A stretch of 64,000 bases of DNA. Origin: an uncultured Paraprevotella sp. Its GTDB lineage: Bacteria > Bacteroidota > Bacteroidia > Bacteroidales > Bacteroidaceae. The DNA is taken from the NCBI GenBank assembly GCA_944321365.1, contig CALULA010000001.1:434001-498000 (forward strand), written 5' to 3'. The notes under the pieces are model-generated. The model was not told the DNA's origin. It ran no database searches and saw nothing but the letters and a program-made list of their open reading frames with translations. The position numbers and the translations under genes were made by a program. This document shows, piece after piece, positions 12,263 to 57,118 of this stretch. Positions within the stretch are counted from its first letter, which is position 1, and each line of letters starts with the position of its first letter.

Positions 12263-12358
12263 TTGCGCAAAGCCGTTTCCGTTTGTGCGCAACACCGTCG
12301 ACGCTTTTCCGCAAAGCCGTTTCCGGTCTTGCGCAACACTTCCGGCAGTTTTCCACAA
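12263..12358. repeat. 22-bp-period TTGCGCAA array 1 (five units)
   Basis: Five 8-bp cores start at 12263 TTGCGCAA, 12285 GTGCGCAA, 12307 TTCCGCAA, 12329 TTGCGCAA and 12351 TTCCACAA, each exactly 22 bp after the last with 14-bp linkers. Linkers 1 and 3 share AGCCGTTTCCG. It lies in the 408-bp gap between the helicase and rseC. The rest of the gap (12184-12262 and 12359-12550) shows no gene and no clear terminator. Short open frames on both strands across the array are low-complexity by-products of the repeat. The type is not one I recognise. Confidence 0.9.
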
Positions 12359-19619: not shown

Positions 19620-19715
19620 TTGCGCAAAAAACAGTTTGTCTTTGCGCAAGACTGTTCCGTTCTTTGCGCAACACTTTCGGCAGTCTTGCGCAACACCGGA
19701 ATGCTTTCGCTGCAA
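19620..19715. repeat. 22-bp-period TTGCGCAA array 2 (four perfect cores plus one degenerate)
   Basis: Perfect TTGCGCAA cores start at 19620, 19642, 19664 and 19686, and a decayed CGCTGCAA sits in phase at 19708. Linkers are 14 bp. The linker after the third core (CACTTTCGGCAGTC) is 12/14 identical to linker 4 of array 1 (CACTTCCGGCAGTT), suggesting common descent. It lies between the convergent genes galE and the MBL hydrolase. Confidence 0.92.
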
Positions 19716-29166: not shown

Positions 29167-29262
29167 TTGCGCAAAAGCTTGTCCGTTCTTGCGCAAGACT
29201 TCATCTGTTCTTGCGCAAGATTTTGTCCGTTGTTGCGGAAAACCGTAGCGGCCTTTGTGCAA
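29167..29262. repeat. 22-bp-period TTGCGCAA array 3 (five units)
   Basis: Cores start at 29167, 29189 and 29211 (all TTGCGCAA), 29233 (TTGCGGAA) and 29255 (TTGTGCAA), exactly 22 bp apart. The next in-phase position, 29277 (CCGCGCTT), has decayed. Linkers 1 and 3 share TTGTCCGTT. The array lies between the convergent Fur-family and NUDIX genes and fills most of that gap; no terminator with a T-tract is visible there. Confidence 0.92.
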
Positions 29263-31162: not shown

Positions 31163-31171
31163 CAGCTGGAG

Positions 31172-31242
31172 AGGTTCCCAGCAGATTCGAACTGCTGTGG
31201 ACGGTTTTGCAGACCGCTACCTAACCACTCGGTCAGGGAACC
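31172..31242 (-). tRNA. tRNA-Cys(GCA), copy 2
   Basis: A 71-nt cloverleaf on the minus strand: acceptor GGTTCCC pairs with GGGAACC, the anticodon loop is CTGCAAA (anticodon GCA), the T-loop is TTCGAAT, and the discriminator base is U, as expected for Cys. CCA is not encoded. Identical to the copy 17 bp upstream in transcription order. Confidence 0.96.
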
Positions 31243-31259
31243 ATTGCGCCCTACGGAAG

Positions 31260-31330
31260 AGGTTCCCAGCAGATTCGAACTGCTGTGGACGGTTTTGCAG
31301 ACCGCTACCTAACCACTCGGTCAGGGAACC
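31260..31330 (-). tRNA. tRNA-Cys(GCA), copy 1
   Basis: An identical 71-nt tRNA-Cys, first in the minus-strand transcript, with a -7 box 22 bp upstream. Anticodon GCA, discriminator U, CCA not encoded. Confidence 0.96.
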
Positions 31331-46432: not shown

Positions 46433-47590
46433 ATGAATAGCTCCTCCAATTTCAAAAGGACCGTGCGGATCGTCTCATGGACATGCGGTCTGCTGTTTGC
46501 GGTGTTCTGCGTGTTGTATTTGTCTGTCATGCAGCCGGAACTGCTGTCTACGGCTCAGCATCTGCTTTCCGGCGGGCAGACTTTATATTATCCCGTGTGG
46601 GGAACGGTCATCATCACGCTGGTTCTTCTGCTGATTCAGGCGGCCTATCGCAGGACGCTGGCCTTTCCGCTTCGTTTCAATGCGCTCTATTTCTTCCCCT
46701 CCTGCCTCATGCTGGGACTGCTTACGTCCATTTCTCCGCAGGGTGATGGGTGGGATGTCTTTATGGATACCCGTTGGGGGTGGGTAGTGGCCAGCATCTG
46801 TCTGTACTGTGTCACGGTGTGGTTTGCCATGCATTTCCCCGACATGAAGAACCGCAAGCAGAGCATTTTCTCTTATCTGTGGGTGAATTTGCTGTTGCTT
46901 TCCTTGCAATTCTGCATGGTGGGCAGTCTGGCCAACACCAATGATGTCTATCATTATCGGTTGCAGGTTGAGAAGCATATCGTTGCAGGGCAGGATTCGT
47001 TGGCTTTGCAGGTAGGCCGCAAGTCATTGCATGCCGACCGCAGCCTGACGGCCATGCGGGCTTTCGCTCTGAGCCGTTGCGGCCGTTTGGGCGACCGTCT
47101 GTTCGACTATCCGCAGTGCTACGGCAGTAACGGCTTGTTGCCCGAAGCCTCCGATACGATTTATACGTATGGTTGGGTGCAGGATTTGTACAGATACCTG
47201 GGCGGTAAGCCCGGCAGACATTTGCAGGATGACGTGCCCTTGTTCCTGAGGACCCTGATTCAGTTGCCTTCGGCCACGGAGGCTGTGCCGGACTATCTGC
47301 TTTGTGCCTGTCTGCTGGACAAGAAACTGGATGACTTTGTGCGCCTGCTTCCCCGCTATTATGACCTGAATGGCGATTTGCCCTTGCACTATAAAGAGGC
47401 TGTCATTCTTTATCGTCGTCTGCATACCGCTCCGGCAGTGGTCTACAGAGACACGGCGGTGGAAGCCAATCTGGATGATTTCATCCGCTATGGGGCTAAC
47501 TTTGCCGACGCGACGGAGCGCGTGAACCAGACACGTCGGATGTATGGCAACACATATTGGTGGTATTATTATTATCAGCCTCTGCAGTAG
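46433..47590 (+). CDS. Multi-pass membrane protein of unknown function (DUF6057-like)
   Basis: 385 residues. Four or more hydrophobic helices fill the N-terminal half (WTCGLLFAVFCVLYLSV; VWGTVIITLVLLLIQAAY; LYFFPSCLMLGLLTS; VVASICLYCVTVWFAM). The soluble C-terminal half is helical and TPR-like (VGRKSLHADRSLTAMRAFALSRCGRLGDRLF) and ends in a Tyr/Trp-rich tail (YWWYYYYQPLQ). The style recalls Bacteroidota DUF6057 membrane proteins, from memory. A 10-codon open frame (46408-46440) overlaps its start and could influence translation. The gene lies 49 bp after glgB and is closed by a terminator. Confidence 0.75.
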   Translation: MNSSSNFKRTVRIVSWTCGLLFAVFCVLYLSVMQPELLSTAQHLLSGGQTLYYPVWGTVIITLVLLLIQAAYRRTLAFPLRFNALYFFPSCLMLGLLTSISPQGDGWDVFMDTRWGWVVASICLYCVTVWFAMHFPDMKNRKQSIFSYLWVNLLLLSLQFCMVGSLANTNDVYHYRLQVEKHIVAGQDSLALQVGRKSLHADRSLTAMRAFALSRCGRLGDRLFDYPQCYGSNGLLPEASDTIYTYGWVQDLYRYLGGKPGRHLQDDVPLFLRTLIQLPSATEAVPDYLLCACLLDKKLDDFVRLLPRYYDLNGDLPLHYKEAVILYRRLHTAPAVVYRDTAVEANLDDFIRYGANFADATERVNQTRRMYGNTYWWYYYYQPLQ

Positions 47591-47633
47591 GTTTGTCATG
47601 AGGAGGCTTTGTTGTTGTTTCATTTAGTTTGAG

Positions 47634-47669
47634 TCCCGTATGTGACGTCTTGTCCATACGGGATTTTTT
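47634..47669 (+). terminator. Terminator after the glgB-membrane protein unit
   Basis: A 9-bp stem (47634-47642 with 47655-47663), 12-nt loop, and T6 at 47664-47669. Array 4 begins at the very next base. Confidence 0.85.
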
Positions 47670-47743
47670 GTGCGCACGAACGGAAACGGTTGTGCGCACA
47701 AATGGTTTCGTTCTTGCGCAAGAACAGTTCCTGTTTTCCGCAA
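47670..47743. repeat. 22-bp-period TTGCGCAA array 4 (four units)
   Basis: Cores start at 47670 and 47692 (both GTGCGCAC, still perfect palindromes), 47714 (TTGCGCAA) and 47736 (TTCCGCAA), exactly 22 bp apart. The GTGCGCAC cores change both ends together, preserving dyad symmetry. The rest of the 474-bp gap to the GH43 gene (47744-47940) shows no gene. Confidence 0.9.
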
Positions 47744-48064: not shown

Positions 48065-51000
48065 ATGAAAAAAAGTTTGTTCGCGCTCCTGATGCTGTTT
48101 TATGCATGTTGTGGAGCGTTTGCCGAGAGTTACCCCAAGGTGGTGTTGCAGGGAGACTATCCAGACCCCAGTATTGTTCGCGACGGGGAGGACTATTACA
48201 TGACCCATTCACCTTTCTACTACAGTCCGGGGTTCCTGATCTGGCACTCCACCGACCTGGTGCATTGGGAACCCGTCTGCCGCGCCATGGCACAGTGGGA
48301 AGGCTCTGCCATGGCCCCGGACCTGGTGAAGTATAAAGGCCGTTTCTACATCTACTATCCGGCGGCGGGCAGCAACTGGGTAATCTGGGCCGATGACATA
48401 CGCGGACCGTGGAGCCAGCCCATAGACCTGAAGGTGGGCGGCGGCATAGACCCCGGCCATGTGGCGGACGATAATGGCAAACGTTACCTCTACCTTTCCG
48501 CCGGGCAGGTCATCGCGCTTTCCGACGACGGGCTGTCTACGGTGGGGAAAGTGCAGACGGTCTATGACGGTTGGCAGTATCCCCGCCATTGGAAAACGGA
48601 AGGCATGTTTCTGGAGTCACCGAAACTGCTGTTCCACAATGGCTATTATTATATGACTTCTGCCGAGGGCGGTACGGCGGGACCTGCCACCAGCCACATG
48701 ATTGTGTCGGCCCGTTCCAAGAGTGTGCTCGGACCGTGGGAAAATTCGCCCTACAATCCGGTGGTGCACACCTACAGTGCCACGGACAACTGGTGGTCCA
48801 AGGGACACGGTACGCTGATAGATGACGTCAACGGCAACTGGTGGATGGTGTATCATGCCTACGCCAACGGTTATTATACGTTAGGACGGCAGACCCTGAT
48901 AGAGCCTATGGAATGGACACCGGACGGGTGGTACCGCGCCGCCTCCGAGGCTACGCCCCTCAAGGCTTCTGCATCGGTGGCCTGCGCGGAGCTGTCCGAC
49001 AGTTTCAGCGGACCGGAGCTGGGCTGGCAGTGGACGTTCTGGAAAGAATACGCCCCGGAGGCCTTGTCGTTCGATGACCGTACGCTCCGGGTGAAGGCCA
49101 AGGGAAAGACACCGGCAGACGGACGCCTGCTGCTGGTGACGGCCGAGGACAAGAACTATGAGACACAGGTGGACATTGTGACGGGAGGCGGCAACCGGGC
49201 CGGGCTGGTGCTGTTCTACAACGAGAAAGCCTATGCCGGGCTGGTGTCGGACGGCAAGACGTTCACCGTCTACCGCCACGCGGGACAAAGCAGCGAGCTG
49301 CCGAACAAGCTGGGGAAAACGTTCACCGTGCGGCTGAAGAACCGCGGCAACAAGGTCTGCATAGAGGTGAGCAAGGATAAAAAGGAATGGACCACGGTGG
49401 CGGAGAACATCGACGTGGCCGATATGAATCACAACCGCTACAAGGGATTCTATGCCCTGCGTATCGGTCTCTTGTCGGCAGGTAAGGGCAAGGCCGCGTT
49501 CCGCGACTTCCGTTACCGCAATGCCGTGCCGCAGGAAAAGGACATGAGTGCCTATCTGATGGTATTCCACAAGGACGAGACGCACGGTCTCTACATGGCA
49601 CTCAGCCGCGACGGCTACTCCTTCACCGCCCTGAACAACGGCGAGCCGGTGCTGGCGGGCGACACGATTGCCTGTCAGCGCGGCATACGCGACCCGTACA
49701 TCTATCGTGGTCCGGACGGAGCGTTCTATCTGGCCATGACCGACCTGCACGTGTTCGCACAGCGCGACGGCTACCGCTCGACGCAGTGGGAGCGCGACGG
49801 CGGCCGTTATGGCTGGGGCAACAACCGCGGACTGGTGCTCATGAAGTCGTGGGACCTGATCAACTGGCAGCGGGCCAACGTCCGTTTCGACCAGCTGACC
49901 GCCGGTCTGAGTGAAGTAGGATGCGTCTGGGCTCCCGAAGTGGCCTACGACGAGCGCAAGGGAAAGCTGATGATTTACTACACCATGCGCTTCCGCAACG
50001 AGCGGAACAAACTGTATTATGTATACGTGAACGACGACTTCAACCGCATAGAAAGCCTGCCGCAAATCCTCTTTGAGTATCCCGATGAAACGGTTTCCGC
50101 CATCGATGGAGACATAACAAAGGTGGGCGACAAGTACCATCTGTTCTACGTGGCCCACGACGGTACGCCGGGTATTAAGCAAGCCGTGTCCGACCGTATC
50201 AACGGGGATTACTTCTTCGACCCGCGCTGGTACGACTTCGAACCGAAAGCCTGCGAGGCACCTACCGTATGGAAGCGCATCGGCGAGGACAAGTGGGTGT
50301 TGATGTACGACGTCTACAGCGTCACTCCGCACAACTTCGCGTTCACGGAGACCTCGGACTTCGTGCAGTTCAAGAATCTGGGCCGTTTCAATGAGGGCGT
50401 CATGAAGTCCACGAACTTCAACGCGCCGAAGCACGGTGCCGTGATTCACCTGACCGCCGAAGAGGCCGACCGGCTGGAACAGTACTGGCAGGAGCACGCC
50501 CGGAAGTACGTGCCCCAGGCCGCCGTTCAGCAGAATCCGGTGCTGCCGGGCTACTATGCCGACCCGGAAATCCTGTATTCCGAGCAGGACGGGAAGTATT
50601 ACATCTATCCCACGACGGACGGCATCCCCGGCTGGGGCGGCTCGCGCTTCAAGGCATTCTCTTCCACGGACCTGAAAACGTGGAAGAACGAGGGTGTCAT
50701 CCTGGACCTGAAAGACGTCTCATGGGCGAAGAAGAACGGCTGGGCCCCCTGCATCATCGAGAAGAAGCAGGCCGACGGCAGCTACAAGTACTATTTCTAC
50801 TACACGGCGGAGAAGCAGATCGGCGTGGCCGTGGCCGACCGTCCCACCGGGCCGTTCCGCGACAGCGGGAAGCCTCTGATAGGCAAGGAACTGCCCGATG
50901 GCGCGAAGCACGGGCAGAACATCGACCCCGATGTGTTCACCGATCCTGTGAGCGGGAAAACTTATCTTTATTGGGGCAATTATTTCATGGCCGTATGCGA

Positions 51001-51433
51001 GCTGAATGACGATATGGTTTCCGTCAGGCTGAACACTACACGCCTTCTGATAGAGAACGATGACTATTACAGCGAGGCCGGCTACGTGTTCTACCGCGAC
51101 GGCTACTACTACTTCACGTGGTCGAAGAACGACACGCGCAGCCCGGAGTATGAAGTGCGCTATGTGCGTTCCAAATCGCCGGTCGGACCGATAGACCCGT
51201 CGGAAAGCACGGTGATTCTCAGCAAGCGTCCGGAAGCCGGGATTTTCGCTACCGGGCACCAGTCCGTGCTCCAGCTTCCGGGCAAGGACGAATGGCGCAT
51301 CGTCTACCACCGCTTCCGTTTTCCCGATGGCATCACGATGGGACGGGACGCCGGCTATCACCGCGAGGTCTGCATCGACCGTATGGAGTTCAATCCGGAC
51401 GGGAGCATCAAGCCGGTCGTGCCCAGCCTGTGA
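48065..51433 (+). CDS. Secreted triple-GH43 glycosidase
   Basis: 1122 residues with a signal peptide (MKKSLFALLMLFYACCGAFA). Three five-bladed-propeller GH43 modules are visible. Module 1 (about 24-310): DYPDPSIV (base Asp, about 33), GGIDPGH (about 129), FLESPKLL (acid Glu, about 184), then a beta-sandwich (about 315-490). Module 2 (about 495-800): GIRDPYIY (about 542), SAIDGDITKVG (about 680), ACEAPTVWK (about 730). Module 3 (about 823-1120): YYADPEILY (about 832), NIDPDVFTDP (about 953), YYSEAGYVF (about 1001). Each seems to keep all three catalytic acids. Likely substrates are arabinan, xylan or galactan side chains. The GH2 gene follows 44 bp later. Third codon positions are strikingly G/C-rich. 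Confidence 0.92.
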   Translation: MKKSLFALLMLFYACCGAFAESYPKVVLQGDYPDPSIVRDGEDYYMTHSPFYYSPGFLIWHSTDLVHWEPVCRAMAQWEGSAMAPDLVKYKGRFYIYYPAAGSNWVIWADDIRGPWSQPIDLKVGGGIDPGHVADDNGKRYLYLSAGQVIALSDDGLSTVGKVQTVYDGWQYPRHWKTEGMFLESPKLLFHNGYYYMTSAEGGTAGPATSHMIVSARSKSVLGPWENSPYNPVVHTYSATDNWWSKGHGTLIDDVNGNWWMVYHAYANGYYTLGRQTLIEPMEWTPDGWYRAASEATPLKASASVACAELSDSFSGPELGWQWTFWKEYAPEALSFDDRTLRVKAKGKTPADGRLLLVTAEDKNYETQVDIVTGGGNRAGLVLFYNEKAYAGLVSDGKTFTVYRHAGQSSELPNKLGKTFTVRLKNRGNKVCIEVSKDKKEWTTVAENIDVADMNHNRYKGFYALRIGLLSAGKGKAAFRDFRYRNAVPQEKDMSAYLMVFHKDETHGLYMALSRDGYSFTALNNGEPVLAGDTIACQRGIRDPYIYRGPDGAFYLAMTDLHVFAQRDGYRSTQWERDGGRYGWGNNRGLVLMKSWDLINWQRANVRFDQLTAGLSEVGCVWAPEVAYDERKGKLMIYYTMRFRNERNKLYYVYVNDDFNRIESLPQILFEYPDETVSAIDGDITKVGDKYHLFYVAHDGTPGIKQAVSDRINGDYFFDPRWYDFEPKACEAPTVWKRIGEDKWVLMYDVYSVTPHNFAFTETSDFVQFKNLGRFNEGVMKSTNFNAPKHGAVIHLTAEEADRLEQYWQEHARKYVPQAAVQQNPVLPGYYADPEILYSEQDGKYYIYPTTDGIPGWGGSRFKAFSSTDLKTWKNEGVILDLKDVSWAKKNGWAPCIIEKKQADGSYKYYFYYTAEKQIGVAVADRPTGPFRDSGKPLIGKELPDGAKHGQNIDPDVFTDPVSGKTYLYWGNYFMAVCELNDDMVSVRLNTTRLLIENDDYYSEAGYVFYRDGYYYFTWSKNDTRSPEYEVRYVRSKSPVGPIDPSESTVILSKRPEAGIFATGHQSVLQLPGKDEWRIVYHRFRFPDGITMGRDAGYHREVCIDRMEFNPDGSIKPVVPSL

Positions 51434-57044: not shown

Positions 57045-57118
57045 GTGCGCAAGAACGTCCGCGTCTTTGCGCAAGGCTGACCGCATCTTTGCGCAAAGAA
57101 ATCCGCACTCTTGCGCAA
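57023..57118. repeat. 22-bp-period TTGCGCAA array 5 (four clear cores plus one inside the terminator stem)
   Basis: Cores start at 57045 (GTGCGCAA), 57067, 57089 and 57111 (all TTGCGCAA). The in-phase position 57023 reads TCTTGCAA and forms part of the terminator's right arm. The array ends 16 bp before the stop of the convergent efflux gene. Confidence 0.92.

Follow-up and report, generated by a model that had tools for sequence, protein, structure and literature searches.

Among the described systems of repeated or dispersed DNA sites, BIMEs are gyrase sites at the ends of transcription units, CRISPR loci are built of 24-48-bp repeats with unique spacers and cas genes, and plasmid iterons and ParR-type parC consist of tandem sites, about 11 or 20-22 bp long, to which oligomerising proteins bind. 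The matS, SlmA and Noc sites are many dispersed single conserved palindromic sites, each kind recognized by one protein, and uptake sequences occur about once per kb. The BrickBuilt MITEs of Porphyromonas gingivalis are reported to be 23-nt intergenic tandem repeats in 19 copies of up to about 23 units, most copies having a conserved leader and tail and terminal inverted repeats (PMC4596501). Dialects of uptake sequences have likewise been reported (PMC3630211).

The arrays reported here, from an uncultured Paraprevotella sp., are, like BrickBuilt, intergenic tandem repeats of a Bacteroidales genome, but they have 3-9 units, and their flanks show neither a conserved leader or tail nor terminal inverted repeats. 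They share with REP/BIME a palindromic nature, an intergenic location, a high number per genome and, in the host genome, a bias to gene 3′ ends; they differ by the lack of a tag, by exact 22-bp tandem units, by spacers that are not copied and by an even spacing. An 8-bp core and a 14-nt spacer with a positional profile distinguish them from CRISPR. Iteron and centromere arrays have tandem units in a comparable size range, whereas ours are many, dispersed on the chromosome and with no adjacent rep or par genes noticed. Similarly, matS, SlmA and Noc sites are many, dispersed and palindromic, but they do not form tandem arrays differing in sequence from one species to the next. As for the uptake sequences of Neisseriaceae and Pasteurellaceae (Neisseria, Haemophilus), dialects are species-specific and homogeneous within a genome, yet here the signals come as arrays rather than as single words, at a far lower density and without a known receptor. 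A literature search, with most subscription journals outside its reach, found no description of such arrays, and we know of no bacterial system that joins a constant phase and an even spacing to a wholesale change of dialect.

The stretch of 64,000 nucleotides analysed (the window) corresponds to C1:434001-498000 of a 2.74-Mb draft genome (the host genome, G000). The locus of interest and the other arrays of the window are as follows.

46433-47590, + strand: upstream gene, 385 aa
47635-47669, + strand: terminator-type hairpin and T6 of the upstream gene, from sequence inspection and RNA folding
47670-47743: whole array, four cores, exact 22-bp period, 14-nt spacers
47670-47677, no strand: core 1, GTGCGCAC
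47692-47699, no strand: core 2, GTGCGCAC
47714-47721, no strand: core 3, TTGCGCAA, the consensus
47736-47743, + strand: core 4, TTCCGCAA, a one-sided (uncompensated) variant
48065-51433, + strand: downstream gene, 1122 aa, glycoside-hydrolase-like by eye
12263-12358: array, five cores, the third and fifth variant
19620-19693: array, four cores
29167-29262: array, five cores, the last two variant
57045-57118: array, four cores, also preceded by a T-tract (T8)

In the hairpin, CCCGTATG (47635-47642) pairs with CATACGGG (47655-47662), and the T6 tract (47664-47669) directly precedes core 1. The RNA of 47628-47672 folds at -21.3 kcal/mol (z -6.9); a consensus terminator scanner missed the hairpin at 47635, its loop of 12 exceeding the scanner limit of 8. 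The original prediction was correct in placing the end of T6 at 47669 and the start of the first core at 47670, and in giving GTGCGCAC as the first two cores; it did not include core 4 at 47736. In 16 of the 17 congeners searched, the 385-aa upstream gene is matched at E<=0.001, some of these matches being partial and weak. At gathering threshold, curated RNA families gave only two tRNAs in the window and no match to the arrays. Two tandem tRNA-Cys genes lie at 31171-31330 inside an 88-bp direct repeat, 100% identical.

The window contains six sets of three TGCGCA at 22-bp steps, against none in 100 shuffles. Genome-wide, there are 149 such triples, and 306 once core positions 3 and 6 may be either C or G (TSCGSA), the reversed pattern being absent in both cases. 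We studied in detail 1.258 Mb of the genome (46%), which contain 93 arrays with 414 cores, against 0-1 array at each of the ten periods 17-21 and 23-27. Units number three to five in 78 of the 93 arrays. Adjacent near-cores are separated by 22 bp in 140 cases, by 23 bp in one and never by 21 bp; indels between cores are thus effectively excluded, giving the fixed helical phase expected of phased arrays. Cores are bordered by conserved arms, roughly GTCT-TGCGCA-AGAC, themselves T-rich. In the whole sample, TTGCGCAA is found 136 times inside arrays and 35 times outside, where 18.7 are expected, and some of these 35 may be missed short arrays.

Spacer identity between arrays (0.377) equals that expected from independent columns (0.378), so that cores and phase stay constant and drift affects the central part of the spacer, with a small excess of highly similar spacer pairs, 11 or 12 of 14 positions matching (54 versus 19). 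Flanks have almost nothing in common (mean identity 0.274 versus 0.253 in control windows), and their base composition displays no strongly conserved column past the arms. Arrays of the host genome do not look copied. REP sequences with their associated transposase (RAYT) were rejected as an explanation, there being no tag, no transposase and no copying: at 12 bp or less from the end of the array, GTAG is present in 1 of 93 arrays, the lowest of 12 same-letter tetramers, and CGTC in 11 of 93, unremarkable among 12 tetramers, while the Y1 REP-associated transposase PF01797 has no match in this genome and is present in 5 of 14 control genomes. A second, AT-rich array of 22-bp period, CTTTAGCCTAAAGATAT-like, lies at C1:238366-238852 (L027), in the gap that carries AGTACT-type arrays in two relatives, G007 and G001; a single genome can thus hold more than one dialect.

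The original prediction took the coupled change of both outer bases in GTGCGCAC as a sign of selection for dyad symmetry, unless uncompensated changes were as common as compensated ones. Among the 414 cores of the 93 arrays, 20 compensated changes stand against 389 one-sided ones, and the argument, tested on 50 then on 93 arrays, was abandoned. The pairs of positions behave differently: 1/8 displays a mild excess (16 compensated for 9.1 expected, 139 one-sided, nine other double changes) and 3/6 a strong deficit (4 compensated for 17.2 expected, 163 one-sided, three other), with no compensated change among the 48 at 2/7 nor among the 41 at 4/5. GTGCGCAC itself is a minority form, 8 of 154 TGCGCA cores, in excess over the 3.6 expected (permutation p 0.017). 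Core centres are GCGC in 215 cases, GCGG in 62, CCGC in 52 and CCGG in only four (depletion, Fisher p=0.005). No array contains the exact 8-mer TTCCGGAA, the inner compensated form, which occurs 88 times outside; it is as though one canonical half-site were required. Compared with strict dyad selection, a site in which one or both halves are canonical (TTGC or GCAA) accounts better for the cores.

Arrays show a gap preference, the gaps being classed from home-made gene calls. Forty of the 93 are in convergent gaps, 35 in tandem and nine in divergent ones, eight overlap a called ORF and one is at a sequence end; available gaps of at least 60 bp in the sample are 92 convergent, 290 tandem and 114 divergent. 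Array density is about one per 12-13 kb, with interval quartiles of 9-18 kb. When compared with class-matched gap draws, intervals were much more even than the null on C1 (CV 0.478 versus 0.905) and C2 (0.393 versus 0.851), 0 of 5000 draws reaching these values in either case, and less clearly so on C3 (0.626 versus 0.839, P 0.08). For the 80 pooled intervals, all from the host genome, CV is 0.511 versus 0.86-0.89 (0 of 3000), and only 3 of 80 are shorter than 5 kb where 24-27% are expected. A replication-direction code was rejected, since along the contigs the asymmetric cores do not clearly favour one strand. The genes flanking the nine divergent arrays are housekeeping-like by eye, and the autoregulation lead was dropped since no binding-protein candidate was seen among their products. 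One array in a divergent gap (C1:318297-318370) is 459 bp away from a clpC-like gene and precedes, by 978 bp, a gene that is gyrA-like by eye.

TGCGCA triples were found in 23 of the 399 family genomes drawn, the host genome included. Of 389 genomes outside the family, four contain a triple, each as a single chance-like match. The reversed pattern cannot serve as a null within the family because it is abundant in some members (ACGCGT, 34 in G246). Seventeen congeners have 0-2 TGCGCA triples each, and arrays with a 22-bp period but different letters were seen in stretches of G007, G001, P. clara and P. xylaniphila; no 22-bp array was seen in the 20 kb of G017 examined. The core becomes GAGTGCGCACTC in G139 (106 triples) and G279 (56). 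Scanning 352,576 bases from 20 other genomes of the family without reference to a core gave 16 blocks of period 22, one of them a run of N, and 1-2 blocks at periods 16, 17, 19, 20, 23, 25 and 26, multiples of three being raised as expected of coding sequence. Array motifs vary by lineage, some not being palindromic, and form a lineage-specific dialect homogeneous within the genome, as uptake sequences do. The complete 4.17-Mb genome G169 has four array sites of TGCGCA type only, too few to repeat the spacing analysis on a second chromosome, and in G022 a core guessed from one array gave just three matches.

The convergent gap of array 19620 has an orthologue in P. clara that also carries a 22-bp array, of different sequence, and array C1:409918 appears to correspond by its flanking gene to G007 C6:26616; these two cases are anecdotal and not above what gap preference could give. 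The units of G139 and G246 have a polarity instead of being symmetric. No spacer there has two identical halves (0 of 82 for 6.8 expected in G139, from 50 of 77 matches; 0 of 64 for 4.1 expected in G246, from 32 of 34 matches), and polarity within an array is mostly consistent (21 of 28 and 8 of 9, respectively). According to crude ORF calls, 5 of 29 arrays of G139 and 5 of 14 of G246 are in divergent gaps. Spacer half-words in these genomes come from a small vocabulary, perfect palindromes being as if avoided. Among viral contigs, 46 stretches match the TGCGCA triple, mostly unrelated repeats and a few resembling family arrays. Five contigs filed as viral (L148, L152, L157, L162 and L188) share a nearly identical ATGCGCAT-type 22-bp array, which may be host DNA or belong to a mobile element with the same kind of site.

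Several explanations could account for these observations. The arrays could be transcribed RNA elements at gene ends, terminator helpers or mRNA-stabilising hairpins in the manner of REP/BIME; with 40 of 93 arrays in convergent gaps and array 47670 directly following a terminator, this is conceivable but quite improbable. Arrays as single strands do fold better than shuffles (z -1.8 to -4.9 for five arrays, one on both strands), as palindromic cores would anyway. An RNA helix was rejected for want of arm covariation: facing arms of neighbouring cores pair no more than chance (291 of 745 versus 306 expected), which disfavours structured RNA, nor do arms within one core pair above chance (314 of 770 versus 300). 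Compensated core changes are rare or depleted, with the mild excess confined to the outermost pair. The abutment to a terminator T-tract, noted by the original prediction for this array, is not specific to 3′ ends: the six bases just outside the array include at least five T on 15 of the 122 sides that face a gene 3′ end and on 6 of the 62 that face a 5′ end, and a general terminator linkage was discarded on this basis. A hairpin with T-tract is only slightly commoner near array-flanked gene ends (25 of 115) than elsewhere (41 of 264), and array polarity in tandem gaps of G139 follows transcription in three cases and opposes it in six. From the alternative of a dimeric site or a structured RNA initially proposed, the second thus loses ground for lack of arm covariation, and a putative palindromic dimer-type binding site remains our best guess, for a reason differing from the original one.

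An inert or selfish minisatellite or MITE family, spread by copying or by a 22-bp duplication bias and without cellular function, is unlikely, though it deserves serious attention. The tandem structure is found family-wide, adjacent spacers of the host genome are slightly more alike (0.44 versus 0.38), and P. gingivalis provides the precedent of 23-nt repeats in MITEs (PMC4596501). The polar units, repeated spacer words and divergent arrays of G139 and G246 argue for this explanation and against the symmetric-site model outside the host genome, and the repeated words suggest that some copying may have taken place there. Nevertheless, in the host genome spacers of different arrays are independent, flanks are hardly more alike than controls, no Y1 transposase is present, 21- or 23-bp steps are nearly absent despite diverged spacers, the unit number is narrow and the spacing strongly even. 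This even spacing, together with lineage-specific dialects, homogeneous cores without copied flanks and a location beside housekeeping-like genes, away from promoters, would also suit a mark of self DNA, in which a receptor or packaging protein would recognize the array, and biased uptake and recombination would maintain a single dialect in each species and the even distribution. The uptake-sequence dialects offer a published precedent (PMC3630211). We nonetheless hold this as improbable: the signals are tandem arrays and not single 10-12-mers, one array per 12-13 kb is far sparser than uptake sequences, and G169 has very few arrays of the type searched.

The phase lock, the independence of spacers, the lack of arm covariation and the even spacing favour sites for a cooperative DNA-binding protein. 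We therefore tentatively prefer, while staying a little short of calling it probable, that the arrays are helically phased sites for such a putative protein with a chromosome-scale role. Each 22-bp unit, about two turns of DNA, would be bound by a two-fold symmetric protein, the bound unit comprising the core TTGCGCAA, with G or C tolerated on one side, and the semi-conserved arms GTCT...AGAC. A cooperative oligomer would be loaded onto three to seven adjacent units, along one face of the double helix. Such oligomers, located between genes and mostly away from promoters in the host genome, would most likely organise or insulate the chromosome, as a domain boundary, a tether or a segregation mark. 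We infer the binding, the dimeric or oligomeric state and this role from the exactness of the period, the profile of cores and arms, the gap preference and the period-22 arrays of the family, together with the features above.

Some facts go against a protein-binding role. Array sequences differ between sister species, where a chromosome-wide factor should keep its site; density varies widely, down to the four TGCGCA-type sites of G169; arrays of G139 and G246 have polar units and are not confined to gene 3′ ends; and array single strands fold better than shuffles. For an ordinary nucleoid protein, no fact is harder to accommodate than the change of dialect from species to species, which is also the strongest one in favour of a self-mark or a driven element. 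One further proposal, which we regard as possible but rather doubtful, is a fast-evolving, family-wide chromosome-marking code: near-regular 22-bp-phased arrays, the whole set changing sequence with lineage splits, and a binding protein co-evolving with them. Its protein would serve chromosome folding, segregation or self-DNA recognition.

The arrays look like an undescribed set of candidate DNA landing pads for a protein. To our knowledge, little is known of chromosome organisation in Bacteroidaceae, which are dominant gut bacteria, and many evenly spaced, phase-locked arrays offer an immediate handle, as one pull-down could find the protein. Even if inert, they would represent a new class of repeats, keeping the beat but not the letters. 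If the specificity of the protein shifts between sister species, this would be a rarely seen example of a DNA-binding protein and its sites co-evolving across a whole genome.
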